From NCBI RefSeq assembly GCF_003399635.1, contig NZ_NBXB01000013.1:1-53721 (forward strand): 53,721 nt of DNA. Reading direction: 5' to 3'. How positions within the stretch are numbered: the first letter of the stretch is position 1; the number at the start of each line of letters is the position of its first letter. Both the position numbers and the translations under genes were made by a program. A model generated the notes under the pieces. It was not told the DNA's origin and did no database searches. It was given only the letters and a program-made list of their open reading frames with translations. Origin of the DNA: Subtercola boreus. Its GTDB lineage: Bacteria; Actinomycetota; Actinomycetes; Actinomycetales; Microbacteriaceae. Below are positions 26,681 to 48,159 of the stretch, in pieces.

Positions 26681-26691
26681 CCTTGCCGGGC

Positions 26692-27504: not shown

Positions 27505-28157
27505 TGGAGTGGATCGTCGTCGTCCCGGTGAAGGGATCGGATCTCTCGAAGACCCGGCTTGCGGATCTGCCTGCCTCAGTGCTCGAGCGGCGACGACTGG
27601 CCCTGGCTTTTGCGCTCGACACCGTGGAGGCGCTCCGCGCCTCGTCGCAGGTCGCGGAGATCCTCGTCGTGACGGGCGACACCGAGTCGGCCGCCGCGCT
27701 GTCGTCGCTCGGCGCCCGCATACTGGCCGACCCCGGCGAGGGGCTGAACGCGGCCATCACGGTGGGGATCACCGAGGCGCGGTGCCGACACCCTGAGGCC
27801 CCCGTCGCCGCGATCACGGCTGACCTGCCGTCGCTCACCACAGCGGATCTCGACGATGCGCTGCACGCTGCCGCCGGTCATACCGCAGCGTTCGTAGCTG
27901 ATCTGCAGGGTGTCGGAACGACCACGATCACGGCCCAGCCCGGTGTGCCTCTCGTGCCCCGGTTCGGCCAGGGATCTGCGGCCGCTCATAGAGCGGCCGG
28001 GCTGGTGCCACTCGCGCTGCCGTCGTTTTCGACGATCCGCCGTGACGTGGATACCCCAGCTGATGTAGTGGATGCGGTGTCGACTTTCGGTAGATACACC
28101 CAACAGGTGTTGGCCGCCGACGCTGCAGACCCCCGAAGTTTCCCGGACCGGAGATGA
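27504..28157 (+). CDS. cofC: 2-phospho-L-lactate/phosphoenolpyruvate guanylyltransferase
   Basis: CofC (FbiD) activates the three-carbon phosphate (phospholactate or PEP) with GTP for F420 assembly. The 217-residue protein starts [20 protein letters not shown], a MobA-like nucleotide-binding N-terminus. It contains NAAITVGITEARCRH, ITADLPSLT and FGQGSAAAHRAAG. The start ATG 27504 shares one base with the cofE stop; GTG 27501 is the alternative. It is the last gene of this plus-strand run; cofD lies 2 kb on, on the other strand. Confidence 0.9.
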   Translation: MEWIVVVPVKGSDLSKTRLADLPASVLERRRLALAFALDTVEALRASSQVAEILVVTGDTESAAALSSLGARILADPGEGLNAAITVGITEARCRHPEAPVAAITADLPSLTTADLDDALHAAAGHTAAFVADLQGVGTTTITAQPGVPLVPRFGQGSAAAHRAAGLVPLALPSFSTIRRDVDTPADVVDAVSTFGRYTQQVLAADAADPRSFPDRR

Positions 28158-29253: not shown

Positions 29254-30237
29254 ATGAACCCCAGTGACCTTCCCACGTTCGCCCGCGACTACGGGCATTT
29301 CGGCGTGAGCTCCGATCCGGAGGCCTTCGGGCTCGAGACCTCCGTTGTCGACACATCGGCCGGGCCGATCACGGTCCGGCACGGCCGCCGTTCTCACCGG
29401 GCCGACGCAAGGGCGATCATCCTGCTGCACGGTGCGGCGGGCTCCTGGAGTACCTTCACGCCACTCCTGGCGGCTGCTTGGTTCCTTGCGGAGGCCGGCG
29501 GGCCCGCCCCGCTCGAAGACCTGGTGATTCCCGATCTCGCGGGCTGGGGCGATTCCGCTCTCGCGGCCAAGGCCGACGATCGCACCATTGAGGCCGTCGC
29601 CGCATCGGTGGCGGAGGTTGCCCGCTCCCTCGGCTACGGCCGGTGGATGATCGTGGGCCACTCCCTCGGCGGCTTCGTCGCCCTCGAACTCGCCGCCGCC
29701 CAGCAGACGGCCACCGAGCGTGTGCTCCTGGTCTCGCCGACGACGTTCGGCGTCGCAGCGGCCGTGCGGCACCCGTTCCGGGAGCTCCGGAACCTGCCCG
29801 CCTACGTCGGCATGCTCGGGGTGATGCGGGTGCTCTCGCGCCTCGGCCGGTTCGGCACGCGATTCGTCGCTGTGATCGGGCCGACCCGGTTCTTCCGACG
29901 GTCGATGGGGCCGCTGTTCGCCCACCCAGGCAGGATCGCGCAGAGTGTGTACCGTGCGCTCGCCGCCGAGGCTCGGCCCCTGTCGTTCGTGCTGGCGTCG
30001 GCTCGTGCGGGCGAGTACGACGCCAGGCGCTGGGCGGGCATCCGGTGCCCGGTTCGTTCGCTCCGCGGCAGCAGGGATGTCTTCGTCGCCGACGATGACC
30101 ACGTTCGGCTGGCGGCGACGATCCCTGACTTCGAGGGCGGCATCCTCGACGATGCGGGCCACTTCGGTCAGATCGAGCGGCCCGTCGAGGTGCTCGAGCG
30201 GCTGTTCCCGGCCACCAGCGCGTCGGCGGCGAGCTGA
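29254..30237 (+). CDS. Alpha/beta hydrolase
   Basis: This 327-residue cytoplasmic hydrolase shows the oxyanion motif IILLHGAAGSWSTF, the nucleophile elbow IVGHSLGGFVALELA (Ser in GHSLGG), an acid in RGSRDVFVADDDH and the His in DDAGHFGQIERP. A cap of about 80 residues (AAVRHPFRELRNLPAYVGML onward) covers the site. Its last 70 bases overlap the 3' end of cofD on the opposite strand. The substrate is unknown; esters or lactones are typical. Confidence 0.88.
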   Translation: MNPSDLPTFARDYGHFGVSSDPEAFGLETSVVDTSAGPITVRHGRRSHRADARAIILLHGAAGSWSTFTPLLAAAWFLAEAGGPAPLEDLVIPDLAGWGDSALAAKADDRTIEAVAASVAEVARSLGYGRWMIVGHSLGGFVALELAAAQQTATERVLLVSPTTFGVAAAVRHPFRELRNLPAYVGMLGVMRVLSRLGRFGTRFVAVIGPTRFFRRSMGPLFAHPGRIAQSVYRALAAEARPLSFVLASARAGEYDARRWAGIRCPVRSLRGSRDVFVADDDHVRLAATIPDFEGGILDDAGHFGQIERPVEVLERLFPATSASAAS

Positions 30238-31220
30238 GCAGCCTGGTCGACGGTGTTCATCCAGAGCGGAACGACGCTCACCCGGAGCCCGGCGGCCTGG
30301 ATCCCGTCGGCGAGGGAGGCGTCCGATTCGTCGATCAGCCAGGCATCCAGAAGCCCGCCGTTCGCCCGGGAGCCGTAGTGCATCCCCACCGCATCGGCGG
30401 CCACGGCCACGCCGATGGCATCGAGACAGGCCTTGGCCATTCCGCGCACCGGCGAGCCCGAGATGATGGGTGAGACGCCGACCACGGGCGCGAGTGTCGA
30501 CTGCAGGGCCTCCCGGATGCCCGGCACCGGCAGGATCGTGCCGATCGAGACCACGGGGTTCGACGGGGCGACCAGCACGACATCCGCGCCGAGAATCGCC
30601 TGCACGACGCCCGGCGCCGCCGTGGCGGACTCGAGACCGTGCTGTTCGAAACGAAGGGCCGGCAGTGACGCGCGGTAGTGCACCCACCACTCCTCGAAGT
30701 GCATGGTGCGGGTGCCGTCGGCCGCGTCGGGCCCGCCGACGACGCCGTTGCCGTCAGCAGCCACCACCACGTGCGTCTCGACCGGCTGGTCGCTCATCGG
30801 GAGCAGCGTGACCCCGAGATTCCAGCGCGCGGCGATCTCGGCCGTCACCTCGCTCAGTGTGAGTCCCTCGCGAAGGAGATGGGAGCGGGTGATGTGGGTG
30901 CCGAGGTCGAGGTCGCCCAGGGTGAACCAGGGCCAGCCCACCCCGTAGGCGGTCAGTTCGGCGCTCACCCGCTCGGATTCGCCGAGCCGTCCCCATCCGC
31001 GTACCTCATCGTTCGCGCCGCCGAGGGTGTACATGATCGAGTCGAGGTCGGGGCAGACCCGGAGCCCGGTCAGCCAGAGGTCGTCCCCGGTGTTCACGAC
31101 CACCGTCACCTCGGCGCTCGTGCCACCGCTCCCGTCGGGGAGGGTGTCACGCAGATGCTGCCTCAGCCCCCGCAGGAACTTCGCTCCACCAACGCCACCG
31201 GCCAACACGGTTATCTTCAC
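30168..31220 (-). CDS. cofD: 2-phospho-L-lactate transferase (CofD/FbiA)
   Basis: CofD joins the activated three-carbon unit to the deazaflavin Fo, giving F420-0 or its dehydro form. The 350-residue protein starts MKITVLAGGVGGAKFLRGLR, then shows VVVNTGDDLWLTGLRVCPDL, DSIMYTLGGAND, LGDLDLGTHITRSHLLREG and VLVAPSNPVVSIGTILPVPG. Its 3' end overlaps the alpha/beta hydrolase gene by 70 bases. With cofE and cofC nearby, all steps after Fo are covered; the Fo synthase (FbiC) gene is not in this window. Confidence 0.94.
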   Translation of the reverse strand: MKITVLAGGVGGAKFLRGLRQHLRDTLPDGSGGTSAEVTVVVNTGDDLWLTGLRVCPDLDSIMYTLGGANDEVRGWGRLGESERVSAELTAYGVGWPWFTLGDLDLGTHITRSHLLREGLTLSEVTAEIAARWNLGVTLLPMSDQPVETHVVVAADGNGVVGGPDAADGTRTMHFEEWWVHYRASLPALRFEQHGLESATAAPGVVQAILGADVVLVAPSNPVVSIGTILPVPGIREALQSTLAPVVGVSPIISGSPVRGMAKACLDAIGVAVAADAVGMHYGSRANGGLLDAWLIDESDASLADGIQAAGLRVSVVPLWMNTVDQAAQLAADALVAGNSRSSTSTGRSI

Positions 31221-31280: not shown

Positions 31281-32189
31281 TCAGCGCCAGCCATCGAGCC
31301 GGGCCGCGACCTCCTCGAGCACCGACTCCGAAGCGGCATACACGCCCTCGGCCCGCGGCCAGTGCGTGATGACGTCGGTGAAGCCGAGACCGGATGCCCG
31401 CTCCACCATCCGCTCGAAAACCCCGGCGTTCGCCAGCGACACCTGCCCGCCCGAGTCGAGCGACAGATACCGGTCGATCGTCGCCGGGTCCCGTCCCTCC
31501 GCGTCTGCTGCGGATTCCAGCCGTTGCACCAGGGTCTCGACCGCGGCCCACCAGTCTTCGCCGACCGCACCGTCTGCCCCCGTGGTGACCCAGCCCCGGC
31601 CGAATCGGCTCACGAGTGCCAGGCCCTTCGGGCCGTTGGCTGCCAGAACGAAGGGAACGCGCGGCTCCTGCGCCGGCTGGCCCACCATTCGCGCATCGCG
31701 GGCGGTGTACCACTCGCCGTCGAACGTGATTCCGGATGATTCGGCCGCCCCCGGGGCATCCGGAGCCGCTTCAAACCGCAGCAGCCGGTCTGTCAGCTCG
31801 ACGAATTCGGCGAAACGCTCGTGGCGCTGACGGGGCGTGAGCTCCTGCTGGCCGAGCACGAAGGCGTCGAAGCCGGTACCGCCGGAACCCACCCCGAGCA
31901 GGAAGCGGCCGCCTGAGATGTCGTCGAGGGTCGCCACCTCCTTCGCGAACGGAACGGGGTGACGGAAGTTCGGTGATGACACGAAGGTTCCGAGCCGGAT
32001 GCGCGAGGTGACCGTTGCGGCTGCCGTGAGGGTCGGCATCGTCGCCCCCCACGGTTCACCGGCCAGCGATCGCCAGGAGAGGTGGTCGTAGGTCCACGCG
32101 TGGTCGAAGCCGAACTGCTCGGCGGCCTCCCATTTCGGGCGGGCCACGGCCCACGGGTCCTGGGGGAGGATGACGATTCCGAAGCGCAT
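31281..32189 (-). CDS. LLM class F420-dependent oxidoreductase
   Basis: This is a bacterial-luciferase-like TIM-barrel protein of 302 residues. Motifs: MRFGIVILPQDPW, WEAAEQFGFDHAWTYDHLSW, TSRIRLGTFVSSPNFRHPVP and SGGRFLLGVGSGGTGFD. The pattern resembles F420- rather than FMN-using members, and the gene directly follows the F420 biosynthetic genes. A TAGACT box six bases before the ATG at 32189 makes it leaderless. It lies 60 bases upstream of cofD on the same strand. The substrate is unknown. Confidence 0.85.
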   Translation of the reverse strand: MRFGIVILPQDPWAVARPKWEAAEQFGFDHAWTYDHLSWRSLAGEPWGATMPTLTAAATVTSRIRLGTFVSSPNFRHPVPFAKEVATLDDISGGRFLLGVGSGGTGFDAFVLGQQELTPRQRHERFAEFVELTDRLLRFEAAPDAPGAAESSGITFDGEWYTARDARMVGQPAQEPRVPFVLAANGPKGLALVSRFGRGWVTTGADGAVGEDWWAAVETLVQRLESAADAEGRDPATIDRYLSLDSGGQVSLANAGVFERMVERASGLGFTDVITHWPRAEGVYAASESVLEEVAARLDGWR

Positions 32190-32245: not shown

Positions 32246-33619
32246 TCAGACCGCCCGGATCACCCCGGGAGGCGTCTCCCCGAGGGCAGCCGCGGCGAGC
32301 AGTGCGGCAACCTCCTGCACGTCGTTCTGCACGAGACCTGCCGTCACCCTGACGTGCGCGCGCTGGCCGCCCCCGGGTTCCGTCGACGGCTGGAACGAGG
32401 TGCCCGCAGCCACCCGGATACCGCTCGCGGCCAACGACACCATGGCCCCCTTCTCGTCGCGCACCGGCAGCCAGAGGTTGATGCCGTCTGCCGAAGCGAC
32501 AGTGAGCCCGTGGTTCTCGAGTGCCGCAGCGAGAGCCTGCTGGCGTGCCCGGTAGGTGTCACGGGCCTCGGCGACCTGCGCCGCCGACTCCGGAGCGGTG
32601 AGCAGCTCGAACAGGATCACCTGCAGCATCCGCGAGGTCCAGCCCGGCCCGAGCATCCGTCGCGCGACGATACGGTCGATGAGCGCGGACGGACCCGCGA
32701 GGGCTCCGATCCGCAGGTCGGGGCCGTGGGACTTCGCATAGCTCCGGATGTGCAGCACCCGGTGCGGCAGCCACGAGCCGAGGCTGAGCGCGGGCGCAGA
32801 ACTGATCTCGGCCGAATGGTCGTCTTCGATGATCACCGGGTCTGTCAGGTGCGAATGCGCCCGCAGCACCCGCACGAGTTCCTCGGCGCGCCTCGGGGTC
32901 ATGGATGCGCCGGTCGGATTGTGGGCCCGCGGCTGCAGGATGATCGCGGCCGGGTTCGTGGCGAGGGCCCGGGCCAGGGCTTCCGGCCGCATGCCGTGTT
33001 CGTCGATGGCGACGGGTACCCGCTCCGCCCCGAACTGTTCGAGCAGGTCGAAGAACGGCGGGAACGAGGGGTCTTCGACGAGCACCCGGTCGCCGTAGCG
33101 CACCACCATCTCGAGCGAGCGGGAGACCGCATCGAGTGCGCCGTCGAGAATCGTCAGGCTTTCGGGTGAGTAGGGCCAGGATGCCCGGAGCTGGCGTTCG
33201 AGTTCTGGCAGCACCCGCTGGGTGAGGTAGCTCGACGTGTCGGCCCGAGCGGGTACGCGGGCCAGGGCCAAGCCGAGGGAGGGGAGGAGGGCCGGATCGG
33301 GTGTGCCTGAGGAGAGGTCGAGGCGGGCCTCGACGTGAGTGCCGGCGAGTTCGGCGAAGTGGGAGGGCATCCAGGGCGTGCCGGCCTTCAGCACGAAGCT
33401 GCCTGCGCGGCCCCGGGAGGTGATGAGGCCGACCCCGGCGAGGGCCTGCCAGGCGCTCGAGACGGTCGCCGGGCTCACCCCGAGAGCGCGTGCGAGATCA
33501 CGCACGGTGGGCAGCCGGTCGCCGGAGGCGATGCCGCCCGACCGTATCAATCGGGACACCGCCGCGGCGATGGCCTCGGGCGTCCTGTTCTCCACAGCCT
33601 CGACGATCTGGTCGATCAT
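32246..33619 (-). CDS. MocR (GntR/aminotransferase-like) regulator
   Basis: From ATG 33619 the protein has 457 residues: an N-terminal GntR winged helix (DRLPTVRDLARALGVSPATV then SSAWQALAGVGLI), a linker, and a fold-type I aminotransferase domain that binds PLP as a sensor (ILQPRAHNPTGASMT, IIEDDHSAEI, and the Schiff-base Lys in RSYAKSHGPDLRIGAL). AGAGGTG precedes the start. It is divergent from the pyrimidine-catabolic operon with 103 bases between, so it most likely controls that operon, perhaps sensing beta-alanine or another amino product through PLP. The track upstream of 33619 in this frame is not coding. Confidence 0.88.
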   Translation of the reverse strand: MIDQIVEAVENRTPEAIAAAVSRLIRSGGIASGDRLPTVRDLARALGVSPATVSSAWQALAGVGLITSRGRAGSFVLKAGTPWMPSHFAELAGTHVEARLDLSSGTPDPALLPSLGLALARVPARADTSSYLTQRVLPELERQLRASWPYSPESLTILDGALDAVSRSLEMVVRYGDRVLVEDPSFPPFFDLLEQFGAERVPVAIDEHGMRPEALARALATNPAAIILQPRAHNPTGASMTPRRAEELVRVLRAHSHLTDPVIIEDDHSAEISSAPALSLGSWLPHRVLHIRSYAKSHGPDLRIGALAGPSALIDRIVARRMLGPGWTSRMLQVILFELLTAPESAAQVAEARDTYRARQQALAAALENHGLTVASADGINLWLPVRDEKGAMVSLAASGIRVAAGTSFQPSTEPGGGQRAHVRVTAGLVQNDVQEVAALLAAAALGETPPGVIRAV

Positions 33620-33628
33620 CCACACCTC

Positions 33629-33657
33629 TTGACTTATTTTTACGCCTGCGTCACAGT
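33629..33657 (+). promoter_or_regulatory. Promoter of the pyrimidine-catabolic operon
   Basis: TTGACT (33629-33634), 17 bases, CACAGT (33652-33657), a near TANNNT box. Transcription would start near 33664, inside the operator. Confidence 0.45.
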
Positions 33658-33682
33658 CTGAAACACGAGAGAAATGTTCAGA
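33657..33682. promoter_or_regulatory. Operator-like inverted repeat
   Basis: TCTGAAACA-N9-TGTTCAGA is a nearly perfect inverted repeat (one extra base in the left arm). It lies between the divergent MocR gene and the amidohydrolase gene. Its left part, TCTGAAACAC, recurs exactly at 48171-48180 upstream of the ureide aminotransferase gene. Confidence 0.6.
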
Positions 33683-33722
33683 ACCAATAATAACAAAACG
33701 GGCTTCGAGAGGAATTGCACCA

Positions 33723-34571
33723 ATGACGGTTGTACGCGCAGCGATCACGCAGACGACCTGGACAGGCGACAAGGAGTCGATGATCCAGAAGCACGAGCAG
33801 TTCGCGCGGGATGCGGCGGCTGACGGTGCCCAGATCATCTGCTTCCAGGAGCTGTTCTACGGCCCCTACTTCGGAATCACCGAAGACAAGAAGTACTACC
33901 GCTACGCCGAGCCCGCCGACGGGCCGATCGTGCAACGGTTCGCCGCGCTCGCCAAGGAGCTGAACCTCGTCATCATCCTGCCGATCTACGAGGAGGACAT
34001 CACGGGTGTGTACTACAACACCGCGGTGATCGTCGAATCTGACGGCACGATCCTCGGCAAGTACCGCAAACACCACATCCCGCACGTCGACCGGTTCTTC
34101 GAGAAGTTCTACTTCCGCCCGGGCAACATGGGCTACCCCGTCTTCGACACCTCTGTCGGCAAGATCGGCCTGTACATCTGCTATGACCGGCACTTCCCCG
34201 AGGGGTGGCGGGAACTCGGGCTGAACGGCGCGCACATGGTCTTCAACCCGAACGCCACCAAGCCGGGGCTGTCGAACCGTCTCTGGGAGGTCGAGGGGCC
34301 GGCCGCTGCGGTCGCGAACGGTTACTTCGTGATGCAGCCCAACCGGGTGGGCCGCGAAGACAACGAGTACGGCGAACTCGCCGTCGACTTCTACGGCACC
34401 AGCCAGGTGATCGACCCGCGCGGAAACTTCGTGGGCGAACGCGGATCCGGTACCGACGAAGAGATCCTGATCCGCGACCTCGATCTCGACCTGGTGCGTG
34501 AGATGCGCGACGACTGGCAGTTCTATCGCGACCGCCGGCCCGAGTCGTACACCTCGATCCCCAAGCCGTAG
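33723..34571 (+). CDS. Beta-ureidopropionase-like carbon-nitrogen hydrolase
   Basis: This nitrilase-superfamily enzyme probably hydrolyses N-carbamoyl-beta-alanine to beta-alanine, CO2 and ammonia, the last ring-opening product of uracil breakdown. In 282 residues the triad is Glu43 (CFQELFYG), Lys116 (YRKHHIPH) and Cys153 (LYICYDRHFPEG). Segments EKFYFRPGNMGYPVF and NRVGRED fit beta-ureidopropionase-type members. GAGAGGAA precedes the ATG. It is the first gene of the operon and is followed by the dihydropyrimidinase that makes its substrate. Other N-carbamoyl amino acids are possible. Confidence 0.85.
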   Translation: MTVVRAAITQTTWTGDKESMIQKHEQFARDAAADGAQIICFQELFYGPYFGITEDKKYYRYAEPADGPIVQRFAALAKELNLVIILPIYEEDITGVYYNTAVIVESDGTILGKYRKHHIPHVDRFFEKFYFRPGNMGYPVFDTSVGKIGLYICYDRHFPEGWRELGLNGAHMVFNPNATKPGLSNRLWEVEGPAAAVANGYFVMQPNRVGREDNEYGELAVDFYGTSQVIDPRGNFVGERGSGTDEEILIRDLDLDLVREMRDDWQFYRDRRPESYTSIPKP

Positions 34572-34598
34572 GTTGTTCGAAACGAGGGAGTTGAACCG

Positions 34599-36038
34599 AT
34601 GAAGACACTCATTTCCAATGGCACCGTGGTGAACGCGACGGGTGTCGCCACCGCCGACGTGCTGATCGACGGCGAGACGATCGCGGCCGTGCTGGCGCCC
34701 GGATCGGCCCTGCTCGGGTTCGACGTCGCGGCCAACGTCGACCGGGTGATCGACGCGCGCGGCAAGTACGTCATCCCGGGCGGGATCGACGCACACACGC
34801 ACATGGAGATGCCGTTCGGCGGCACCTTCGCGAGCGACACCTTCGAGACCGGCACCCGTGCGGCGGCGTGGGGCGGCACCACCTCGATCGTCGACTTCGT
34901 CGTGCAGTACGCGGGCGAGAACATCCTCGACCAGTACCAGGCGTGGCACCAGAAGGCCGCGGGAAACTGCGCCATCGACTACGGCTTCCACCAGATCCTC
35001 TCGGACGTGCAGGACTCCTCGCTCACGGCGATGGATGAACTGCTGAACGAAGGCGTCAGCTCGTTCAAGCTCTTCATGGCCTACAAGGGCGTCTTCCTGA
35101 GTGACGACGGCCAGATCGTCAAGGCGATGCAGCGCGCCAGCGAGAACGGTGCGCTGATGATGATGCATGCCGAGAACGGCAGCGTCATCGACCTGCTCGT
35201 GCAGCAGGCTGTGGCCCGCGGCGACACGTCCCCGTACTTCCATGGCACCACGCGTCCCTGGCAGGCCGAGGAGGAGGCCACCCACCGCGCGATCATGCTC
35301 GCGAACCTCACCGGTGCGCCGCTGTACATCGTGCACGTGAGCGCGAAGCAGGCCGTCGAACAGATCGCCATCGCCCGCGATCGCGGCCAGAACGTGTTCG
35401 CGGAGACCTGCCCGCAGTACCTCTACCTCTCGCTCGAAGAGCAGCTCGGGGCATCCAGTGCCGAATGGGGCGACTTCGAGGGTGCGAAGTGGGTCTGTTC
35501 CACCCCGTTGCGCTCGCGGGCAGAAGGTCACCAGCACCACATGTGGCAGGGGCTCCGCACGAACGACCTGCAGGTCATCTCCACCGACCACTGCCCGTTC
35601 TGCATGAAGGGCCAGAAGGACTTAGGGGTAGGCGACTTTTCGAAGATCCCGAACGGCATCGGTTCGGTCGAACACCGCATGGACCTGATCTACCAGGGTG
35701 TCGTGATGGGCGAGATCAGCCTGCCGCGCTGGGTCGAGCTCACGTCGACCACGCCCGCCCGCATGTTCGGCATGTACGGCAAGAAGGGTGTGATCCAGCC
35801 CGGAGCCGACGGAGACGTGGTGATCTACGACCCGAACGGCCACACCTCGATCGGCGTGGGTGAGGGCCGCTCGCACCACATGAACATGGACTACTCGGCC
35901 TGGGAGGGCTACGAGATCGACGGCCACGTCGACACCGTCATCTCCCGCGGCAAGGTCATCGTCGACGACAACGAATACCTCGGCACCAAGGGCGACGGCA
36001 AGTATTTCAAGCGCGGCCTTTCGCAGTATCTGATCTAG
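34599..36038 (+). CDS. hydA: Dihydropyrimidinase
   Basis: This is a cyclic amidohydrolase of 479 residues that opens dihydrouracil or dihydrothymine to the N-carbamoyl amino acid. Metal ligands: His66 and His68 in GGIDAHTHMEMPFGG, the carbamylated Lys157 in SSFKLFMAYKG, His in IVHVSAKQA, and Asp in ISTDHCPF. GTRAAAWGGTTSIVDFVVQY is typical of the hydantoinase group. GAGGGAG precedes the ATG. Allantoinase activity is an alternative, since the window also carries ureide genes, but the neighbours favour pyrimidines. Confidence 0.92.
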   Translation: MKTLISNGTVVNATGVATADVLIDGETIAAVLAPGSALLGFDVAANVDRVIDARGKYVIPGGIDAHTHMEMPFGGTFASDTFETGTRAAAWGGTTSIVDFVVQYAGENILDQYQAWHQKAAGNCAIDYGFHQILSDVQDSSLTAMDELLNEGVSSFKLFMAYKGVFLSDDGQIVKAMQRASENGALMMMHAENGSVIDLLVQQAVARGDTSPYFHGTTRPWQAEEEATHRAIMLANLTGAPLYIVHVSAKQAVEQIAIARDRGQNVFAETCPQYLYLSLEEQLGASSAEWGDFEGAKWVCSTPLRSRAEGHQHHMWQGLRTNDLQVISTDHCPFCMKGQKDLGVGDFSKIPNGIGSVEHRMDLIYQGVVMGEISLPRWVELTSTTPARMFGMYGKKGVIQPGADGDVVIYDPNGHTSIGVGEGRSHHMNMDYSAWEGYEIDGHVDTVISRGKVIVDDNEYLGTKGDGKYFKRGLSQYLI

Positions 36039-36047
36039 CCATATTCT

Positions 36048-36074
36048 GCGCAGCCGGTCCCCGCCCGGCTGCGC
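36048..36074 (+). other. Intercistronic hairpin between hydA and the F420-type enzyme gene
   Basis: Perfect 10-bp arms GCGCAGCCGG / CCGGCTGCGC with a 7-base loop. There is no T-run, so it may protect or partly attenuate the mRNA rather than end it. Confidence 0.6.
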
Positions 36075-36114
36075 GTACGACACTCGGCCCCACCTCCTCG
36101 ACAGAAAGCACCAC

Positions 36115-37131
36115 ATGGAATTCGGAGCAGTTCTCCAGACCCACCCGCCGGCGTCGCGCACCCTCGCGCTCGCGAAACTCGCCGAGCAGCACGGATTCGA
36201 CTACGCGTGGACGTTCGACTCCCACCTGCTCTGGCAGGAGCCGTACGTCATCTACAGCCAGATCCTGAACGAGACGCACCGCATCAAGGTCGGCCCGATG
36301 GTGACGAACCCGGCGACCCGCGACTGGACGGTGACGGCATCCATCTTCGCGACCCTCAACGAGATGTACGGCAACCGCACCATCTGCGGCATCGGCCGGG
36401 GCGACTCAGCGGTGCGCACCACGAACGGTGCCCCGACGACGCTGAAGACCCTGCGGGAGTCGATCCACGTGATCCGGGAGCTGGCGAACAGCCGCTCAGT
36501 GGAGTACAACGGCGCGACCGTGCAGTTCCCCTGGAGCCGTGGCTCCGAACTCGAGGTCTGGGTGGCGGCCTACGGCCCGCTCGCGCTGAAGCTCACCGGG
36601 GAGGTCGGTGACGGCTTCATCCTGCAGCTCGCCGACGTCGACATCGCCGAATGGATGATCAAGACCGTCCGGAATGCGGCCGAGAAGGCCGGGCGTGACC
36701 CGATGTCCATCAAGTTCTGCGTGGCGGCGCCGATGTACGTCGGCGACGACTGGGAGCACATGCGTGACCAGTGCCGGTGGTTCGGAGGCATGGTCGGCAA
36801 CCACGTGGCCGACATCGTGTCGAAGTACGGCACCGATTCGAACGTGCCGAAAGCGCTCACCGACTACATCGAAGCGCGCCAGGGCTACGACTACAACCAG
36901 CACGGCCTCGCCGGCAATGAGCACGCGAACTTCGTTCCCGACGAGATCGTCGACCGCTTCTGCCTGCTCGGCACGGCCGACCAGCACATCGAGAAGCTCA
37001 AGGCGCTGAAGGAGCTCGGCGTCGACCAGTTCGCGGGCTACCTCCAGCACGACAACAAAGAGGAGACCCTGCGGGTCTACGGCGAAGCCGTCATCCCGGC
37101 GATGCGAGAGCACATCACGGCGACCGCATGA
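36115..37131 (+). CDS. TIGR03842-like LLM class F420-dependent oxidoreductase
   Basis: This 338-residue luciferase-like TIM barrel starts MEFGAVLQTHPPASRTLALA. It shows HGFDYAWTFDSHLLWQEPYV, HRIKVGPMVTNPATRDWTVT and YGNRTICGIGRGDSAVRTTN, a pattern fitting the group named TIGR03842. Its place between dihydropyrimidinase and the importer, with no classical dihydropyrimidine dehydrogenase in the cluster, suggests it performs the redox step on the pyrimidine ring using reduced F420. That role is inference. The next gene overlaps its stop by four bases. Confidence 0.85.
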   Translation: MEFGAVLQTHPPASRTLALAKLAEQHGFDYAWTFDSHLLWQEPYVIYSQILNETHRIKVGPMVTNPATRDWTVTASIFATLNEMYGNRTICGIGRGDSAVRTTNGAPTTLKTLRESIHVIRELANSRSVEYNGATVQFPWSRGSELEVWVAAYGPLALKLTGEVGDGFILQLADVDIAEWMIKTVRNAAEKAGRDPMSIKFCVAAPMYVGDDWEHMRDQCRWFGGMVGNHVADIVSKYGTDSNVPKALTDYIEARQGYDYNQHGLAGNEHANFVPDEIVDRFCLLGTADQHIEKLKALKELGVDQFAGYLQHDNKEETLRVYGEAVIPAMREHITATA

Positions 37132-38027
37132 CGATGACAACGGGAGCGGGCCTGGCGCGCCGTCGCTGGAGCGCCCTGCTCTGGGGCCTGCTCGGCGTGG
37201 TGCTGCTCGCGGTCCTCTGGGAGGGCTACAAGGCGATCGGCCCGCCGACCGGCGTGGTGCTGTTCGACACGAGCATCCTGCCGAAGACCGACGACCGCTC
37301 CATGCCGCACCTCGTCGACATGCTGTCCCGGGCGATCGAGCCGGTGAACACGTCCGCAGGATCCCCGCCGGTCTGGGTGGCGGTCATCGGCGCGGCGCTC
37401 ACCAGCCTCGGCGTCGCCGCAGTGGGCTGGGCGATCGGGTCGGTGGTCGGCTTCCTCATCGCGCTCCTCATGCAGCGCCTGCAGGTCGCCGAGCGCGCCG
37501 TGCTGCCCTGGCTCATCCTCAGCCAGACCGTGCCGCTCATCGCTCTCGCTCCGGTGATCGTCGCCTGGGGTGGCAAGATCCAGATCGGTGCCTTCTCCTG
37601 GGATCGCTGGATGTCCGTGGCCGTCATCGCCTCGTACCTGGCGTTCTTCCCGGTGGCCGTCGGTGCACTCCGCGGGCTGCAGTCGCCCGACACGATCCAT
37701 GTCGAACTGATGCGAACGTACAACGCGGGCTGGTTCCGCACGCTGCTGAAGCTCCGGCTGCCCGCCAGCGTTCCCTACCTGCTTCCCGCCCTCCGGCTGG
37801 GGGCCGCGAGCGCCATCGTCGGCACGGTGGTGGCAGAGGTCTCGACCGGCTACAAGGGTGGCATCGGTCGCATGATCATCGAGTTCGCACAGTCGGGCAC
37901 CTCCGACCCGGCCAAGGCCTACGCGCCGATCGCCGGCGCAGTAGTGCTCGGGCTGGTCTCGGCGGGAATCGTCGCGCTGATCGGCCTCACCCTCAAGCGT
38001 TTCAACCGACAGGAGGCGGCCTCATGA
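37128..38027 (+). CDS. ABC transporter permease (pyrimidine/NMT1-type importer)
   Basis: This 299-residue membrane protein belongs to the SsuC/TauC/ThiX-like permeases. Seen: an N-terminal helix (ALLWGLLGVVLLAVLWEGY), a long outside segment, then helices such as VAVIGAALTSLGVAAVGWAI. The cytoplasmic EAA-type loop reads MRTYNAGWFRTLLKLRLPAS. It overlaps the oxidoreductase stop (ATGA) and the ATPase start (ATGA). With the second permease (38866) it should form a heterodimer. Confidence 0.9.
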   Translation: MTMTTGAGLARRRWSALLWGLLGVVLLAVLWEGYKAIGPPTGVVLFDTSILPKTDDRSMPHLVDMLSRAIEPVNTSAGSPPVWVAVIGAALTSLGVAAVGWAIGSVVGFLIALLMQRLQVAERAVLPWLILSQTVPLIALAPVIVAWGGKIQIGAFSWDRWMSVAVIASYLAFFPVAVGALRGLQSPDTIHVELMRTYNAGWFRTLLKLRLPASVPYLLPALRLGAASAIVGTVVAEVSTGYKGGIGRMIIEFAQSGTSDPAKAYAPIAGAVVLGLVSAGIVALIGLTLKRFNRQEAAS

Positions 38028-38869
38028 CCGATACTGCCCGCACCACCGCTCCCACACCCTCCGAGGTGCTTCCGGCCATCTCCGTGCGTTCGGCCGGCAA
38101 GATCTTCACGGTGGCGAAGGGTGCCGAGGTTCAGGCGCTCACCGGCATCGACCTGACCGTCGCCCCGGGCGAGTTCGTCTCCCTCATCGGCCCCTCGGGC
38201 TGTGGCAAGAGCACCCTTCTCCGTCTGATCGCCGACCTCGACTCCGCCACCAGCGGCGAGATCCTCGTGTTCGGCAAGACTGCCCGGCAGGCCAGGCTCG
38301 ACCAGGAGTACGGCATCGCCTTCCAGAGCGCGGGGCTCCTGCCGTGGCGATCTGTGCAGGCGAACATCGAGCTGCCGCTCGAACTGCACGGCGTGGGCAA
38401 GGCCGAGCGCGCCGCGCGAGCCGAAGAACTGATCGAACTCGTCGGGCTCACAGACTTCCGGAGCCGCTTCCCCGACCAGCTCTCCGGCGGCATGCAGCAA
38501 CGGGTGGCCATTGCCCGCTCGCTCGCCGAGAGGCCGAAACTGCTGCTGATGGACGAACCGTTCGGCGCCCTCGACGAGATGACCCGCGAGCGCATGCAGC
38601 AGGAGCTCGTGCGCATCTGCTCGGAGACGGGCGCCGCTGTGGTCTTCGTCACGCACTCGATCCCCGAGGCCGTGTTCCTCTCCGACCGGGTCGTCGTGAT
38701 GTCGCCGCGGCCGGGCCGCATCGTCGACATCGTGTCGGTGGATCTCGGTCCGGGTACCTCCCGCAGCGACTCCCTCCGCGAGAACCCGGCGTTCTTCGCC
38801 GGGGTGACCGCCGTGCGGGAAGCGCTCCACGGATCACCCGTCGCCCCCCTCGGAGCGGATCTCCGATGA
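38024..38869 (+). CDS. ABC transporter ATP-binding protein
   Basis: This is the energy-coupling ATPase of the importer, 281 residues. Walker A GPSGCGKST begins at residue 57, the Q-loop is in FQSAGLLPW (Gln101), the signature LSGGMQQR spans 153-160 and Walker B LLLMDEP begins near 173, followed by the H-loop VTHSIPEA. It is of the SsuB/TauB/ThiZ type. Four-base overlaps with both permease genes ensure balanced translation. Confidence 0.95.
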   Translation: MTDTARTTAPTPSEVLPAISVRSAGKIFTVAKGAEVQALTGIDLTVAPGEFVSLIGPSGCGKSTLLRLIADLDSATSGEILVFGKTARQARLDQEYGIAFQSAGLLPWRSVQANIELPLELHGVGKAERAARAEELIELVGLTDFRSRFPDQLSGGMQQRVAIARSLAERPKLLLMDEPFGALDEMTRERMQQELVRICSETGAAVVFVTHSIPEAVFLSDRVVVMSPRPGRIVDIVSVDLGPGTSRSDSLRENPAFFAGVTAVREALHGSPVAPLGADLR

Positions 38870-39699
38870 CGACCACCGTCTCCGCCGCTGCCATGGTCAC
38901 CGATCCGTCTGCCGGCGGAGCGAGCGCCGGCCGAGGGGCCGCAGGGCGATCCGTCGCGCGCTCGGTGCTTCCCCCTGTCGTTCTCGGGGTGGCCTTCCTG
39001 CTCGTCTGGCAGCTCGCCGTGGTCGCCTTCGACATCAAGCCCTACCTGCTGCCGAGCCCGACCGACATCGTCGGCCAGATCGTCGTCGTCTTCCCGTTGC
39101 TCTGGTCCTCCCTGCTCGCAACCGGCCTGAATGCGCTGATCGGGCTCGTGCTCGGCGGTGTCCTCGCCGTCGTGCTCGCCCTTCTCGCCTCGCGGGTCAC
39201 GATCTTCGACCGGATGATCGTGCCGATCGTCGCGGCCGTCGCCGTCGTTCCGATCGTCGCTCTCGCGCCCATCCTGAACACGATGTTCGGTTCGACCTCC
39301 GACACGCCCCGGCGGGTCGTCGTGCTGATCGTCGTCTTCGCGCCGATCTTCATCAACACACTCCGCGGCCTCCGCCAGGTGCGGCCGGTGCATCGTGACC
39401 TGATGCGGGCCTACGCCGCCTCGAACTGGCAGCTCACCCGTACCGTCACGCTCCCGGGGGCCGTTCCGTTCATCTTCACCGGTCTCCGCATCGCGGCGCC
39501 GCTAGCCGTGATCTCTGCCATCGTCGCGGAGTACTTCGGCGGGCTGCAGAACGGTCTCGGTTCCCGCATCACCTCCGCCGCGGCGAACAGCGCCTACCCC
39601 CGGGCCTGGGCCTACGTGTTCGGCGCGATCATCCTGGGCCTCGTCTTCTACGGCGTCACCCTGCTGCTCGAACGGCTCGCGAGCCGCCGCCGGGCCTGA
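38866..39699 (+). CDS. Second ABC transporter permease
   Basis: From ATG 38866 the product has 277 residues. It has a 40-residue cytoplasmic N-terminus rich in Ala/Gly and about six helices (VVLGVAFLLVWQLAVVAF first). Its EAA loop is RAYAASNWQLTRTVTLPGAV. It differs clearly from the first permease, so the channel is a heterodimer. It is followed by 92 bases of C-rich sequence with imperfect GTTCCACC.GCACCACC repeats, then the binding-protein gene. Confidence 0.9.
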   Translation: MTTTVSAAAMVTDPSAGGASAGRGAAGRSVARSVLPPVVLGVAFLLVWQLAVVAFDIKPYLLPSPTDIVGQIVVVFPLLWSSLLATGLNALIGLVLGGVLAVVLALLASRVTIFDRMIVPIVAAVAVVPIVALAPILNTMFGSTSDTPRRVVVLIVVFAPIFINTLRGLRQVRPVHRDLMRAYAASNWQLTRTVTLPGAVPFIFTGLRIAAPLAVISAIVAEYFGGLQNGLGSRITSAAANSAYPRAWAYVFGAIILGLVFYGVTLLLERLASRRRA

Positions 39700-39791
39700 G
39701 AACGTTCCACCCGCACCACCGTTCCACCTGCACCACCCCCGCATCACCTTCACCGCACCACCCGTCCAGCACACAGATCAACGGAGGAAAG

Positions 39792-40946
39792 ATGAAGCAC
39801 AGCAGACGCATCACCCTCGGCGCGGCAGCCATCGCCGCGTCGGCAGCCCTCATCCTGAGCGGATGCTCGAGCTCATCGGGCACCGGCGACACTGCCAGCT
39901 CGAGCGGGGGAGCCCTGACCCCCGTGAAGCTGCAGTTGCAGTGGTTCACGCAGGCGCAGTTCGCGGGCTACTACGCCGCCCTCGACCAGGGCTACTTCGC
40001 CGACGAGGGCCTCGACGTCACCATCGTCGAAGGCGGAACGGACATCGTTCCCCAGACCCAGCTGGCCGACGGCGCCGTGGACTACGCCGTCGCCTGGGTT
40101 CCGAAGGCGCTCGCATCGCGCGAGCAGGGCGCCGGCATCACCGATGTCGCCCAGATCCTTCAGAAGTCGGGCACCCTGCAGGTGTCGATGGCCGACAAGA
40201 ACATCACGACCGCCGCCGATCTCAAGGGCAAGACCGTCGGCAACTGGGGCTACGGCAACGAGTTCGAGATGTTCGCCGGCATCACCAAGGCGGGTCTCGA
40301 TCCCGCGACCGACGTCAAACTCGTTCAGCAGGCGTTCGACGAGTCGGGCCTCCTCGACGGGTCGATCGACGCCGCGCAGGCCGAGACCTACAACGAGTAC
40401 GCGCAGATCCTCGAGACCATGAACCCGGCGACCGGCAAGCTGTACCAGCCGAGCGACCTCAACGTGATCGACTGGAACACCGAGGGCACCGCAATGCTCC
40501 AGGATGCGATCTGGGCGAACACCGAGAAGCTCAACAGCGACCAGGCCTACCAGGACCAGACCGTGAAGTTCCTCACGGCCGCGCTCAAAGGCTGGATCTA
40601 CGCCCGTGACAACCCCGAGAAGGCTTCTGCCATCGTCGTGGCCAAGGGATCGCAGCTCGGCGCGAGCCACCAGCTCTGGCAGACCAATGAGATCAACAAG
40701 CTCATCTGGCCGTCGGCAGCCGGCGTCGGAATCATCGATGACGCCTCCTGGAAGCAGACCGTCGACGTCGCCATGACGGCCAAGAACCTCGAAGGCACCA
40801 CCGTCATCACGAAGGCGCCCGACTCCGACGCGTACACGAACACCTACGTGCAGAAGGCGCTCGACGCGCTGAAGGCAGAGGGCGTCGACGTCACGGGCAC
40901 CTCCTACAAGCCCATCACCGTCACCCTCACCGAGGGCGGCAAATAA
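39792..40946 (+). CDS. NMT1/THI5-like substrate-binding lipoprotein
   Basis: The 384-residue protein has a lipoprotein signal (KHSRRITLGAAAIAASAAL to LSGC, lipidated Cys25) and an NMT1/ThiY-like domain. The opening LQLQWFTQAQFAGYYAALDQ followed by GYF is the hallmark of binding proteins for pyrimidine or thiamine-precursor ligands. LADGAVDYAVAWVPKAL and GKTVGNWGYGNEFEMFAGI continue it. GGAGGAAAG precedes the ATG. By context it would capture a pyrimidine or dihydropyrimidine. No TPP riboswitch is seen, arguing against a thiamine role. Confidence 0.9.
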   Translation: MKHSRRITLGAAAIAASAALILSGCSSSSGTGDTASSSGGALTPVKLQLQWFTQAQFAGYYAALDQGYFADEGLDVTIVEGGTDIVPQTQLADGAVDYAVAWVPKALASREQGAGITDVAQILQKSGTLQVSMADKNITTAADLKGKTVGNWGYGNEFEMFAGITKAGLDPATDVKLVQQAFDESGLLDGSIDAAQAETYNEYAQILETMNPATGKLYQPSDLNVIDWNTEGTAMLQDAIWANTEKLNSDQAYQDQTVKFLTAALKGWIYARDNPEKASAIVVAKGSQLGASHQLWQTNEINKLIWPSAAGVGIIDDASWKQTVDVAMTAKNLEGTTVITKAPDSDAYTNTYVQKALDALKAEGVDVTGTSYKPITVTLTEGGK

Positions 40947-40964
40947 GAATCCGCACCACCCCGG

Positions 40965-41014
40965 GCCGGGCATCCGTCGTCGCCCTCACAAGCGGCAGGC
41001 ACCGGATGCCCGGC
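40965..41014 (+). other. Intercistronic inverted repeat before the transaminase gene
   Basis: Perfect 12-bp arms GCCGGGCATCCG / CGGATGCCCGGC with a 26-base loop lie between the binding-protein gene and the aminotransferase. It may set relative expression within the operon. The arms contain the GCATCC hexamer that is common across this window. Confidence 0.6.
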
Positions 41015-41044
41015 TCACCACTCGACACGAAGAAGGCACCACTC

Positions 41045-42382
41045 ATGGATCTCAACCCCGAAGACGGAAAGCTCGCCTACGAACTCGACCGCGCCCACGT
41101 CTTCCACTCCTGGTCGGCTCAGGCCGCGCTGAAGCCGATGGTCATCGCCGGCGGCCTCGGCAGTACCGTCTGGGACTTCGACGGCAACCGCTACCTCGAC
41201 TTCTCGAGCCAGCTCATCAACGTGAACATCGGTCACCAGCACCCGGCCGTGACCGCGGCCATCCGCGCGCAGACCGAGGTGCTCACCACCGTCGCCCCCG
41301 CAGCGGCGAACCTCGCGCGGGGCAGAGCCGCCCAGCGCATCCTCGAACGGGCCGGCCACGACTTCAGCAAGGTCTTCTTCACCAACGGCGGCGCGGACGC
41401 CAACGAGAACGCCTTTCGCATGGCCAGGCTCTACACCGGGCGAGACAAGATCCTCTCGACCTACCGCTCGTACCATGGCAACACCGGGGCAGCGGTCGTC
41501 GCGACAGGCGACTGGCGGCGGATGCCCAACGAGTACGCTCGCGGCCACGTCCACTTCTTCGGGCCCTACGAGTACCGGAGCGAGTTCTGGTCCTCGAGCC
41601 CGGAGGAGGAGTCGGCCCGAGCCCTCCACCACCTCGAACGGGTGATCGTCTCCGAGGGGGCGTCGGGGATCGCCGCCATCGTGCTCGAGACGATTCCCGG
41701 CACCGCGGGCATCCTCGTGCCGCCGCCCGGCTATCTCGCCGGAGTGCGGGCGCTCTCGGACAAGTACGGCATCATGCTCATCTTCGACGAGGTGATGTGC
41801 GGGTTCGGGCGCGCGGGCGGCTGGTTCGCGTTCCAGGCGCTCGGCCAGGTCGAGGGCGAGACGGTCGTGCCCGATCTCATCACCTTCGCGAAGGGCGTCA
41901 ACTCGGGGTATGTGCCGGTCGGCGGGGTCATCATCCCGCCCTACATCGCTGAAGCCTTCGATGACACCGTCTTCCCCGGCGGCCTGACCTATTCCGGGCA
42001 TCCACTCGCCATGGCCTCCATCGTCGGCGCGCTCGATGCAATGGCAGCCGAGGGCATCGTCGCCAATGCCGAACGCATCGGCCGCGACGTGCTCGGGCCC
42101 GGACTCCGCGCGCTGGCCGAGAAGCACGACGTCATCGGCGAGGTGCGGGGGATCGGTGTCTTCTGGGCGCTCGACCTGGTCGCCGACCGCGAGACGCGTG
42201 AGCCCCTCCCCGCTCGGACGATCGGTGTGCTCAAGGCGAAGCTGCTCTCCCTCGGACTCCTTCCGATGTTCGCCGACAACAGGCTGCACGTCGTGCCGCC
42301 CTGCGTGGTGACCGAGGAGGAGGTCGCCCAGGCGCTCGGCATCTTCGATGAGGCGTTCGCGTCGATCGCGGTGCGCGCCTGA
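41045..42382 (+). CDS. Class III omega-amino-acid aminotransferase (beta-alanine transaminase candidate)
   Basis: This PLP enzyme of 445 residues would convert beta-alanine to malonate semialdehyde. Class III motifs: FFTNGGADANENAFRMARLY, the PLP-contact stretch SYHGNTGAAV, MLIFDEVMCGFGRAG and the Schiff-base Lys in TFAKGVNSGYVPVGG. The start is ATG 41045 rather than the in-frame ATG 41006, which lies inside the hairpin. It is the last gene of the operon; the following LysR gene has its own promoter. The amine substrate is inferred from the pathway. Confidence 0.88.
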   Translation: MDLNPEDGKLAYELDRAHVFHSWSAQAALKPMVIAGGLGSTVWDFDGNRYLDFSSQLINVNIGHQHPAVTAAIRAQTEVLTTVAPAAANLARGRAAQRILERAGHDFSKVFFTNGGADANENAFRMARLYTGRDKILSTYRSYHGNTGAAVVATGDWRRMPNEYARGHVHFFGPYEYRSEFWSSSPEEESARALHHLERVIVSEGASGIAAIVLETIPGTAGILVPPPGYLAGVRALSDKYGIMLIFDEVMCGFGRAGGWFAFQALGQVEGETVVPDLITFAKGVNSGYVPVGGVIIPPYIAEAFDDTVFPGGLTYSGHPLAMASIVGALDAMAAEGIVANAERIGRDVLGPGLRALAEKHDVIGEVRGIGVFWALDLVADRETREPLPARTIGVLKAKLLSLGLLPMFADNRLHVVPPCVVTEEEVAQALGIFDEAFASIAVRA

Positions 42383-42488: not shown

Positions 42489-43430
42489 ATGGACGTACGC
42501 CGGCTCGAACTGCTCCGAGAACTCGCGGAGCGCGGCAGCATCACCGAGGTAGCCCGGGCGACCCACCGCACGCCCTCAGCCGTCTCGCAGCAGCTGCGCG
42601 TGCTCGAGCGCGAGGCCGGCCTTCCCCTCACCGAGAAGGCCGGCCGCGGCATCGTGCTCACCGACGCCGGCCGGGCCCTCGCCCGGAGCGCCACGGATGT
42701 CGCCATCGCCCTCGAGCGCGCCGATGCGCTCTGGGACGAGTTCCGCCACGACCCCACGGGCGAGGTGTCGCTGGCGACCTTCCCGACCGGCGGCCAGATG
42801 CTCCTGCCCGGGGTGCTGCACCGGCTCGCCGGGCAGTCGGGCCTGACCCTCCACGCCAGCGACCGCGACCCCGTCTCCGAGGGCTTCCCCGACCTCACCA
42901 ACGACTTCGACATCGTGGTCGCCCACGCGCCGTCCCGTCCGCCCTCGCTCTGGTACGGGCGGGGCCTCAGCATCGTGCATCTGATCACCGAGCCCCTCGA
43001 CGTGGCGCTTCCCCCCGGGCATCCCCTCGCCGACCAGGCCAGCGTCAGCCCCTCGGACCTGATCGGTGAACAGTGGATCGGCGTCCCCTGGGGATACCCG
43101 TTCGAACGCACCCTCTACGACATCTCCGCAGCGGCGGGCGCGCCCGTCAACATCGTGCAGCGGTTCGCCGACACCCGCGTCACCGAGGCTCTCGTGTCCT
43201 CGGGCCTCGGCGTCGCGATCCTGCCCCGGTACACCGCCGGCGGCGCGTATCTCACGTCGGATTCCCTGCCGCGCATCGCGCTGAAGCCACTCTCCGGCAT
43301 GCGGGCCGAGCGGCACATCTACGCTCTGATGCGCCCCGACCGCGCCGAGCGGCTCGCCGTGCGCACCATCGCCGATCTCCTCCGGGCCGAGGCCGACGCG
43401 ATCCGCGAGGCGAACCCCACCCCCACCTGA
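42489..43430 (+). CDS. LysR family transcriptional regulator
   Basis: The 313-residue regulator starts MDVRRLELLRELAERGSITE. Its winged helix is VARATHRTPSAVSQQLRVLE, and a substrate-binding-type C-terminal domain follows (GEVSLATFPTGGQMLLPGVL). It lies between the pyrimidine island and the conserved DUF177-rpmF run, on the same strand as both. A role in controlling the upstream catabolic genes is possible but the leaderless promoter shows it is expressed separately. Confidence 0.9.
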   Translation: MDVRRLELLRELAERGSITEVARATHRTPSAVSQQLRVLEREAGLPLTEKAGRGIVLTDAGRALARSATDVAIALERADALWDEFRHDPTGEVSLATFPTGGQMLLPGVLHRLAGQSGLTLHASDRDPVSEGFPDLTNDFDIVVAHAPSRPPSLWYGRGLSIVHLITEPLDVALPPGHPLADQASVSPSDLIGEQWIGVPWGYPFERTLYDISAAAGAPVNIVQRFADTRVTEALVSSGLGVAILPRYTAGGAYLTSDSLPRIALKPLSGMRAERHIYALMRPDRAERLAVRTIADLLRAEADAIREANPTPT

Positions 43431-46233: not shown

Positions 46234-46953
46234 TCAGACCGACTTCGACGCAGCGCGCAATTCCGGCTCCTCTGTCGAGTAGCGCGCGCCGACGTGGCCG
46301 AGCACGGCGACGATCACCGTGATGAGCGCCGACAGCGACACACCCCAGCCGAGCCCGAGGCGGAGCAGCAACGCTCCCACCCCGGCGCCGGCCGCGATCA
46401 GCACGATCGCCGCGGCCCGCCGGAACCACGGCTGACCCTTCCCACCCGCCAGGCGCGAGTCGGCGGCGAACCCGGTGATGGTCGACGTCACGACGACAGT
46501 GGTGACATCCTTCACGCCGATGTGCCGCGCAGTGCCAGCCTGGATCCCCATCGCGATCGCGAGGAACATCGTCACGATGTACTCCTGTGGCTGCGGGGGT
46601 GTGCCGCCGTACACCAGCAGGCCGACCGCGAGCCCCACCATGATCACGGCGACCGCGGTCAGCAGCGAGGTGCTCCGATGGGTCCAGCCCTCCTTGATCG
46701 GCCGCAGCACCCGGCCGGCGATCACGGCGCCGAGCATGAAGCTGAGCAGGGCGATGACCGGCCCGATGACCGGCAGCCCGTCGGCCCCGGCCAGCGCCAT
46801 GCCGAGGATGACGACGTTGCCCGTCATGTTCCCCGTGAACACCCGGTCGAGCCCCAGATAGCCGACTGCATCCACCACCCCTGTCGAGAAGGTGAGCGCG
46901 AGCATGAGGGCGAGGTGGAGGTTCGGGATGTTACGGCCGAGGCGCTTGGGCAC
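46234..46953 (-). CDS. DUF1275 (YoaK-like) membrane protein
   Basis: The 239-residue protein has about six or seven helices: LHLALMLALTFSTGVVDAVG, VFTGNMTGNVVILGMALAGA, PVIALLSFMLGAVIAGRVL, STSLLTAVAVIMVGLAVGLL and others. The GYLGLDRVFTGNMTGNVV stretch is the DUF1275 signature. Family function is unsettled. It converges with mutM and diverges from the acetamidase-like gene by 69 bases. Confidence 0.85.
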   Translation of the reverse strand: MPKRLGRNIPNLHLALMLALTFSTGVVDAVGYLGLDRVFTGNMTGNVVILGMALAGADGLPVIGPVIALLSFMLGAVIAGRVLRPIKEGWTHRSTSLLTAVAVIMVGLAVGLLVYGGTPPQPQEYIVTMFLAIAMGIQAGTARHIGVKDVTTVVVTSTITGFAADSRLAGGKGQPWFRRAAAIVLIAAGAGVGALLLRLGLGWGVSLSALITVIVAVLGHVGARYSTEEPELRAASKSV

Positions 46954-46988
46954 GGGGATTCCTTGTCAGCGCGGCACTCGGCGCGCAG

Positions 46989-46994
46989 TACTCT
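46989..46994 (+). promoter_or_regulatory. -10 box before the acetamidase gene and a ten-codon frame
   Basis: TACTCT ends six bases before GTG 47001, which opens a ten-codon frame (MDERAVEDAV if started with Met) that ends at 47033, overlapping the ATG at 47023. A leaderless upstream frame or an untranslated leader of about 22 bases are both possible. Confidence 0.4.
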
Positions 46995-47022
46995 CGAAGG
47001 GTGGACGAAAGGGCAGTGGAAG

Positions 47023-48117: not shown

Positions 48118-48159
48118 GCCAGAAAGTGGCCCCGCAATACGCGTGAAACATCTGTTGCA

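Follow-up and report, generated by a model that had tools for sequence, protein, structure and literature searches.

An operon of Subtercola boreus in which an F420H2-dependent reductase very probably takes the place of dihydropyrimidine dehydrogenase

The window, a stretch of 53,721 nucleotides from Subtercola boreus (contig NZ_NBXB01000013.1), carries an operon that encodes a nitrilase-type carbon-nitrogen hydrolase, a dihydropyrimidinase (DHP), a luciferase-fold oxidoreductase of the TIGR03842 family, an ATP-binding cassette (ABC) importer and a class III aminotransferase (Table 1). A MocR-type regulator gene, whose start was placed at M74 of the longest frame, is divergent from the operon and separated from it by 103 bp. 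This gene set agrees with the original prediction, which had named a divergent MocR regulator, a beta-ureidopropionase-like hydrolase with an intact Glu-Lys-Cys triad, a dihydropyrimidinase with its Lys and His ligands, a TIGR03842-like oxidoreductase, a full NMT1-type importer (here two permeases, an ATPase and a binding protein, 37128-40946) and an omega-transaminase, here the class III aminotransferase. The motifs of the hydrolase are intact (E43, a Lys at K113 or K116, and C153, which we take to be catalytic), as are those of DHP (H66/H68, K157, H190, H246 and D330, with the roles that we presume for them). The hydrolase exceeds no equivalog cut-off; TIGR03381 (N-carbamoylputrescine amidase) gives 240.7 bits against a cut-off of 410.25. 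The locus is very probably a reductive pyrimidine-degradation operon in which an F420H2-dependent dihydropyrimidine reductase, the TIGR03842 protein, displaces dihydropyrimidine dehydrogenase as the first enzyme.

The oxidoreductase scores well over the curated cut-off (295.45 bits) of TIGR03842 (F420_CPS_4043, a hypothetical equivalog), a family without known function. PF00296 is its sole Pfam match, and it contains neither the FMN (flavin mononucleotide) domain of the dihydroorotate dehydrogenase family nor iron-sulfur partner domains. In an AlphaFold model (predicted local distance difference test, pLDDT, 82.5; low confidence at residues 36-40, 96-104 and 265-268) the predicted luciferase (TIM-barrel) fold is nearest to the F420-dependent members: the top 14 rows of a structural comparison were all F420 enzymes (methylene-tetrahydromethanopterin reductase, Mer, ~33-34; Adf, 31; FGD, ~28-29), and after these came the FMN enzyme SfnG (27.6), on a par with R. 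jostii FGD (27.5). The closest solved relatives are Mer structures (8qpl and 1z69), and D97 and Q171 retain the Asp and carboxamide positions found at the pterin pyrimidine ring in Mer and methylenetetrahydrofolate reductase (MTHFR). However, the catalytic Glu6 of Mer, which activates the one-carbon unit (PMC11094777, in excerpt), is V6 in the S. boreus protein; of 141 full-length homologs, 140 have V, T or C at this position and one has a gap. Because this Glu is missing, an identity as Mer or folate reductase was rejected; the family also has other pathway partners than Mer. Retention of D97 and Q171 together with loss of Glu6 is a hint at what the mechanism might be. RutA, an FMN uracil monooxygenase that opens the ring in an oxygen-dependent reaction and needs no dihydropyrimidinase, shares the luciferase fold and has a structure with uracil (6sgl). 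That the S. boreus protein is an FMN-dependent ring-opening monooxygenase of the RutA kind is nevertheless barely conceivable: the leading structural matches are F420 enzymes, ring opening would, by the chemistry as we understand it, render the dihydropyrimidinase pointless, and F420 genes co-occur with the family and stand in the same gene row in Leisingera and Paracoccus.

Table 1. Genes and other features of the window that bear on the operon (positions are those of the window)
Feature	Position	Strand	Support
cofE, F420-0:L-glutamate ligase	26410-27504	+	TIGR01916 228.5 bits, cut-off 180.7
cofC, 2-phospho-L-lactate guanylyltransferase-type	27501-28157	+	TIGR03552 141.5 bits, cut-off 105
cofD, 2-phospho-L-lactate transferase	30168-31220	-	PF01933 178.9 bits
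MocR-type regulator (GntR + aminotransferase fold)	32246-33619	-	GntR PF00392, Aminotran_1_2
Divergent intergenic region, presumed promoter/operator	33620-33722	.	103 bp, sequence
Nitrilase-type carbon-nitrogen hydrolase, presumed beta-ureidopropionase (PydC role)	33723-34571	+	PF00795 215.6 bits
Dihydropyrimidinase (PydB)	34599-36038	+	TIGR02033 543.6 bits, cut-off 393
TIGR03842 luciferase-fold oxidoreductase, presumed F420H2-dependent dihydropyrimidine (uracil/thymine) reductase	36115-37131	+	TIGR03842 595.5 bits
ABC importer permease 1	37128-38027	+	PF00528
ABC importer ATPase	38024-38869	+	PF00005
ABC importer permease 2	38866-39699	+	PF00528
NMT1-type substrate-binding protein, presumed pyrimidine importer	39792-40946	+	PF09084 126 bits
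Class III aminotransferase, presumed beta-alanine (3-aminoisobutyrate) transaminase (PydD role)	41006-42382	+	NF004718 704.6 bits, cut-off 472
LysR-type regulator downstream, operon link unproven	42489-43430	+	PF00126/PF03466

The reductases described for the uracil step belong without exception to the PyrD family; they are PydA/PreTA and PydAc, which uses ferredoxin (PMC7332683, in excerpt). The genome from which the window comes is 99.97% complete and encodes a single protein of the dihydroorotate dehydrogenase family (PF01180), which is a quinone-type PyrD (NF003648, 499 bits, cut-off 433); therefore, by this family search, the genome lacks PreA/PydA. A PreTA/PydA gene elsewhere in the genome, for which the original prediction had advised a search, is thus excluded by the PF01180 and PreA searches. 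Among 394 genomes drawn from the class Actinomycetes, none has PreA (model NF006183, on which E. coli PreA scores 688 bits; E <=1e-70); the same search detected the controls from E. coli and Deinobacterium. In a second sample of 296 genomes from across the phylum, the PreA cut-off was exceeded in two, and one of these matches (G191) holds a stop codon. Since so few genomes exceed this cut-off, little can be concluded from the mutual exclusion of TIGR03842 and PreA within the phylum sample alone. In G208, PreA is over its cut-off and TIGR03842 is not, and the gene row reads preT-preA-Zn hydrolase-DHP.

The TIGR03842 gene is tightly coupled to DHP. In the best 80 loci of at least 566 relatives among named genomes (82-99% identity; several loci stop at contig ends), DHP directly precedes TIGR03842 in all 80; the tblastn-aligned ends of the two are 11-153 bp apart. 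The other genes of the operon were found less uniformly: the carbon-nitrogen hydrolase in 79, the aminotransferase in 66, the NMT1 protein in 57 and MocR in 53. The pairing with DHP holds in the loci where the NMT1 protein (23/80) or the transaminase (14/80) was not found, some of which are cut by contig ends. In the class sample, TIGR03842 was over cut-off in 114 genomes. DHP (TIGR02033, E <=1e-95) was searched for in 80 of these, hand-picked along the list, and in 80 TIGR03842-negative genomes of the same sample, picked from 114 that had been randomly drawn out of 258. DHP was over cut-off in 78 of the 80 positives, covering 16 family labels by hand count, versus three of the 80 negatives (G302, G352 and G569), with one further negative (G424) matching below cut-off; the Fisher p of 6e-39 overstates this association, because members of the same genus do not count as independent observations. 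The stretches of these three DHP-positive negatives hold no TIGR03842, PreA or PreT, the G302 contig being only 7.2 kb long. The two genes are on the same contig in 78/78 genomes; in 77 the distance is at most 4 kb, and in 60 at most 250 bp (G378 and G536 have two DHP matches, of which the nearer was used; in G539 the complete match, 34 kb off, was used). A chance neighbourhood of TIGR03842 and DHP is excluded by these counts and by the close loci. The same data bear on a role at the far end of the pathway, namely an F420-linked malonate semialdehyde reductase or dehydrogenase (the PydE role), with an unrecognised enzyme reducing uracil. Such a role is highly improbable: adjacency to DHP persists where the semialdehyde-making transaminase was not found, the first step would then be empty across the class sample, in which PreA is absent, and G208 combines preT-preA with DHP and a hydrolase where TIGR03842 is missing.

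Across the phylum sample, TIGR03842 was over cut-off in 62 genomes, and stretches around the gene were taken for 60, leaving out the window genome and G098, where a contig end truncates the gene. Searches with tblastn found DHP in 44 of these 60 loci, the nitrilase-type hydrolase in 33, an unrelated Zn-type hydrolase in 21, the class III aminotransferase in 40, an NCS1 nucleobase symporter in 27 and the NMT1 protein in 17, and PreA or PreT in none. A comparison of a tree of 69 rows with the contents of the loci showed that the hydrolase type and the importer type switch between clades while TIGR03842 stays constant. For 13 of the 16 stretches without DHP, the genome has DHP over cut-off elsewhere. 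Neither DHP nor either hydrolase was found in six of the 60, five of which are contig-cut (3.4-11.2 kb). In G225, the TIGR03842 match consists of two overlapping pieces (C1:2193491-2194476), possibly owing to a disrupted gene or an assembly error.

Natural swaps with preT-preA were found on plasmids. Twelve plasmid records match the S. boreus protein (E <=1e-60), ten from Leisingera, one from Streptomyces and one from Paracoccus, and DHP is present in all ten Leisingera records. Two Leisingera plasmids were examined gene by gene (L. caerulea S122 and L. aquaemixtae M583). Both carry the row cofG-cofH-cofD-cofC-cofE-npdG-TIGR03842-RutR-like, adjoining pntA-pntB-class III aminotransferase-Zn hydrolase-hydA (DHP)-NCS1, and the Leisingera TIGR03842 protein is 44% identical to that of S. 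boreus and scores 506 bits on the family model. The gene directly after TIGR03842 in both plasmids has RutR models as its best matches, at scores below both cut-offs (TIGR03613, 198 and 194 bits, cut-off 368; NF011584, 175 and 171 bits, cut-off 230); the annotated S. meliloti RutR itself reaches 246 bits on TIGR03613, also below cut-off, and 232.5 on NF011584. RutR is a uracil sensor and a regulator of pyrimidine use. Among six plasmid DHP clusters examined outside Leisingera, those of Qingshengfaniella and Roseinatronobacter (Rhodobacterales) consist of preT, preA, a RutR-like regulator, a Zn hydrolase and hydA, with DHP 72-74% identical; here preT is our reading of an annotated NAD(P)-dependent oxidoreductase gene. 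The L. aquaemixtae RutR-like protein is 47% identical both to the Qingshengfaniella regulator and to S. meliloti RutR.

These plasmids also bear on the substrate. The enzyme might carry out a ring redox step ahead of DHP on a natural substrate other than uracil or thymine, such as a modified pyrimidine or some other cyclic ureide. In line with this, the NMT1 and NCS1 transporters are not uracil-specific, the Leisingera symporter is matched, behind the general NCS1 model, by allantoin permease models (below their cut-offs), and the MocR regulators are uninformative on pyrimidines. We nevertheless consider such a substrate unlikely, given that a RutR-like regulator adjoins TIGR03842 in Leisingera, that preT-preA takes the corresponding place in the two related plasmids, and that hydantoinase-type-looking clusters do without the gene. 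The last point concerns the Sulfitobacter cluster (racemase, carbamoylase) and the Paenarthrobacter cluster (NCS1, M20 hydrolase), which were read as hydantoinase-type from annotation; neither contains a TIGR03842 gene, and both records lie outside the 12 matching plasmids. A hydantoin pathway is likewise disfavoured by these two clusters.

A supply of F420 is consistent with the preferred reading, that of an F420H2-dependent dihydropyrimidine reductase. The F420 genes that the original prediction had placed a few kb upstream are cofE, cofC and cofD; at another place in the genome, an 891-aa frame contains a CofG match. A second luciferase-fold protein (31281-32189, - strand) adjoins cofD; its best model is TIGR03560, with a score below cut-off. 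In the phylum sample, cofE matches (E <=1e-3) occur, by hand count, in 59 of the 62 TIGR03842-positive genomes versus 110 of the 234 others (p 2.5e-13, a value that ignores shared descent). Two cofE matches ~2.2 kb apart were seen in G268 (C3:53302-53982 and 56200-56892). The pntAB transhydrogenase genes sit between the F420 operon and the DHP genes in Leisingera (stretches L084, L086 and L187), a placement that suggests a dedicated supply of F420H2 from NADPH; the gene set as a whole suggests NADPH from PntAB, F420H2 from NpdG and TIGR03842 as the consumer. The Paracoccus alcaliphilus plasmid (L083, L087, L201 and L202) carries a complete F420 operon with npdG, TIGR03842 and an ABC importer.

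In the proposed pathway, a pyrimidine base (uracil, probably also thymine) would be imported, and the TIGR03842 protein would transfer a hydride from F420H2 to ring C6, with a proton arriving at C5, giving the dihydropyrimidine. The ring would then be opened by dihydropyrimidinase, the nitrilase-type hydrolase would yield CO2, ammonia and a beta-amino acid, and the class III aminotransferase would take off the amino group of the latter. The sequences show directly which genes are present and to which families they belong, that PreA is absent, that TIGR03842 and DHP are coupled across genomes, that swaps occur and that F420 synthesis genes exist. The claim of the original prediction that the F420-type enzyme performs the ring redox step in place of the dehydrogenase is favoured because PreA is absent, the gene is coupled to DHP, preT-preA swaps occur and a RutR-like regulator is a neighbour. 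Two directions had been offered; reduction of uracil to dihydrouracil is preferred because it would feed the downstream hydrolases. Assignment to a ring redox step ahead of DHP is very well supported by context, F420 as the cofactor is well supported, and uracil or thymine as the exact substrate is moderately supported, while the uracil-to-dihydrouracil chemistry, its direction and the hydride and proton details are inferred from context.

Several observations weigh against this assignment. Gene linkage cannot separate uracil from other cyclic ureides, and the association statistics ignore shared descent. No DHP over cut-off was found in two of the 80 TIGR03842-positive class genomes (G357 and G320), nor genome-wide in three of the 60 phylum genomes (G216, G234 and G149), and G216 and G320 are rated 100% complete; three of the 62 (G119, G160 and G173, fragmented drafts) have no cofE match. 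All of these genomes are drafts with at least 160 contigs. The sixth stretch lacking DHP and both hydrolases (L160, from G045) is a full 19 kb, with no pathway gene within 9 kb of TIGR03842; the DHP of G045 lies ~50 kb away on the same contig. The S. boreus genome lacks NpdG (31 bits, below cut-off; Fgd was not searched for). Only two of the six other plasmid DHP clusters have preT-preA, and in the stretches of the Thalassospira and Sinorhizobium clusters both preTA and TIGR03842 are lacking, so DHP does not require an adjacent reductase in every case. On the Paracoccus alcaliphilus plasmid (NZ_CP067126) the annotation between 95 and 231 kb includes no DHP, the chromosome not being covered. 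Finally, the in vitro assay of SSGG-03002, a putative F420/FMN oxidoreductase, failed (PMC10714638, in excerpt).

SSGG-03002 is one of two reported precedents. Knockout and nuclear magnetic resonance (NMR) data indicate that it is needed for reduction of the uracil C5-C6 bond in mureidomycin (PMC10714638, in excerpt), so that SSGG-03002/NpsU (mureidomycin/napsamycin) resembles the S. boreus enzyme in an in vivo uracil C5=C6 reduction by a putative F420/FMN enzyme; it differs in serving antibiotic tailoring, and the likeness is one of reported reaction. In uric acid clusters of Chloroflexota, an F420 luciferase-family 'yanthine reductase' was predicted in place of a PydA homolog (PMC12507026, in excerpt). 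Here too, an F420 enzyme of the luciferase family is proposed to stand in for one of PydA type that acts on a uracil-like ring, but it belongs to a purine route in another phylum, is a prediction only and is set beside TIGR03842 by description. Compared with PydA/PreTA, the S. boreus enzyme takes the same place before DHP and beta-ureidopropionase and has the same expected net reaction, but has an unrelated fold, lacks the dihydroorotate dehydrogenase-family FMN and iron-sulfur domains and would use F420. The described electron donors for dihydropyrimidine formation are NADPH, NADH and, for PydAc, ferredoxin (PMC7332683, in excerpt). The open-licence PubMed Central literature, which leaves most subscription journals and preprints outside, yielded no report of an F420-dependent dihydropyrimidine reductase, in keeping with the original remark that the activity is not known to be described, and no mention of TIGR03842 or CPS_4043. 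The proposal amounts to a reductive breakdown of pyrimidines that begins with an enzyme of a new kind.

About 4 kb past the operon (46294-52921) lie frames for an acetamidase/formamidase, a class V aminotransferase, an M20 allantoate amidohydrolase and an OHCU decarboxylase, a predicted purine and ureide breakdown set that adjoins the pyrimidine operon.

It is likely that TIGR03842 represents a new F420H2-dependent activity that displaces the dehydrogenase across Actinomycetes and is the way into reductive pyrimidine breakdown there, and that the F420 operons of Rhodobacterales plasmids, such as those of Leisingera, serve this single step. If so, a function would be given to a widespread uncharacterised family (62/296 phylum and 114/394 class genomes), the missing first step of pyrimidine catabolism would be filled in a large bacterial class, and a fourth electron donor for dihydropyrimidine formation would be added. 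According to a 2021 review, why Proteobacteria make F420 is unanswered (PMC8498797, in excerpt). The reductase would provide a concrete role for F420 in Alphaproteobacteria and, for Leisingera-like Rhodobacterales, an answer to that question.

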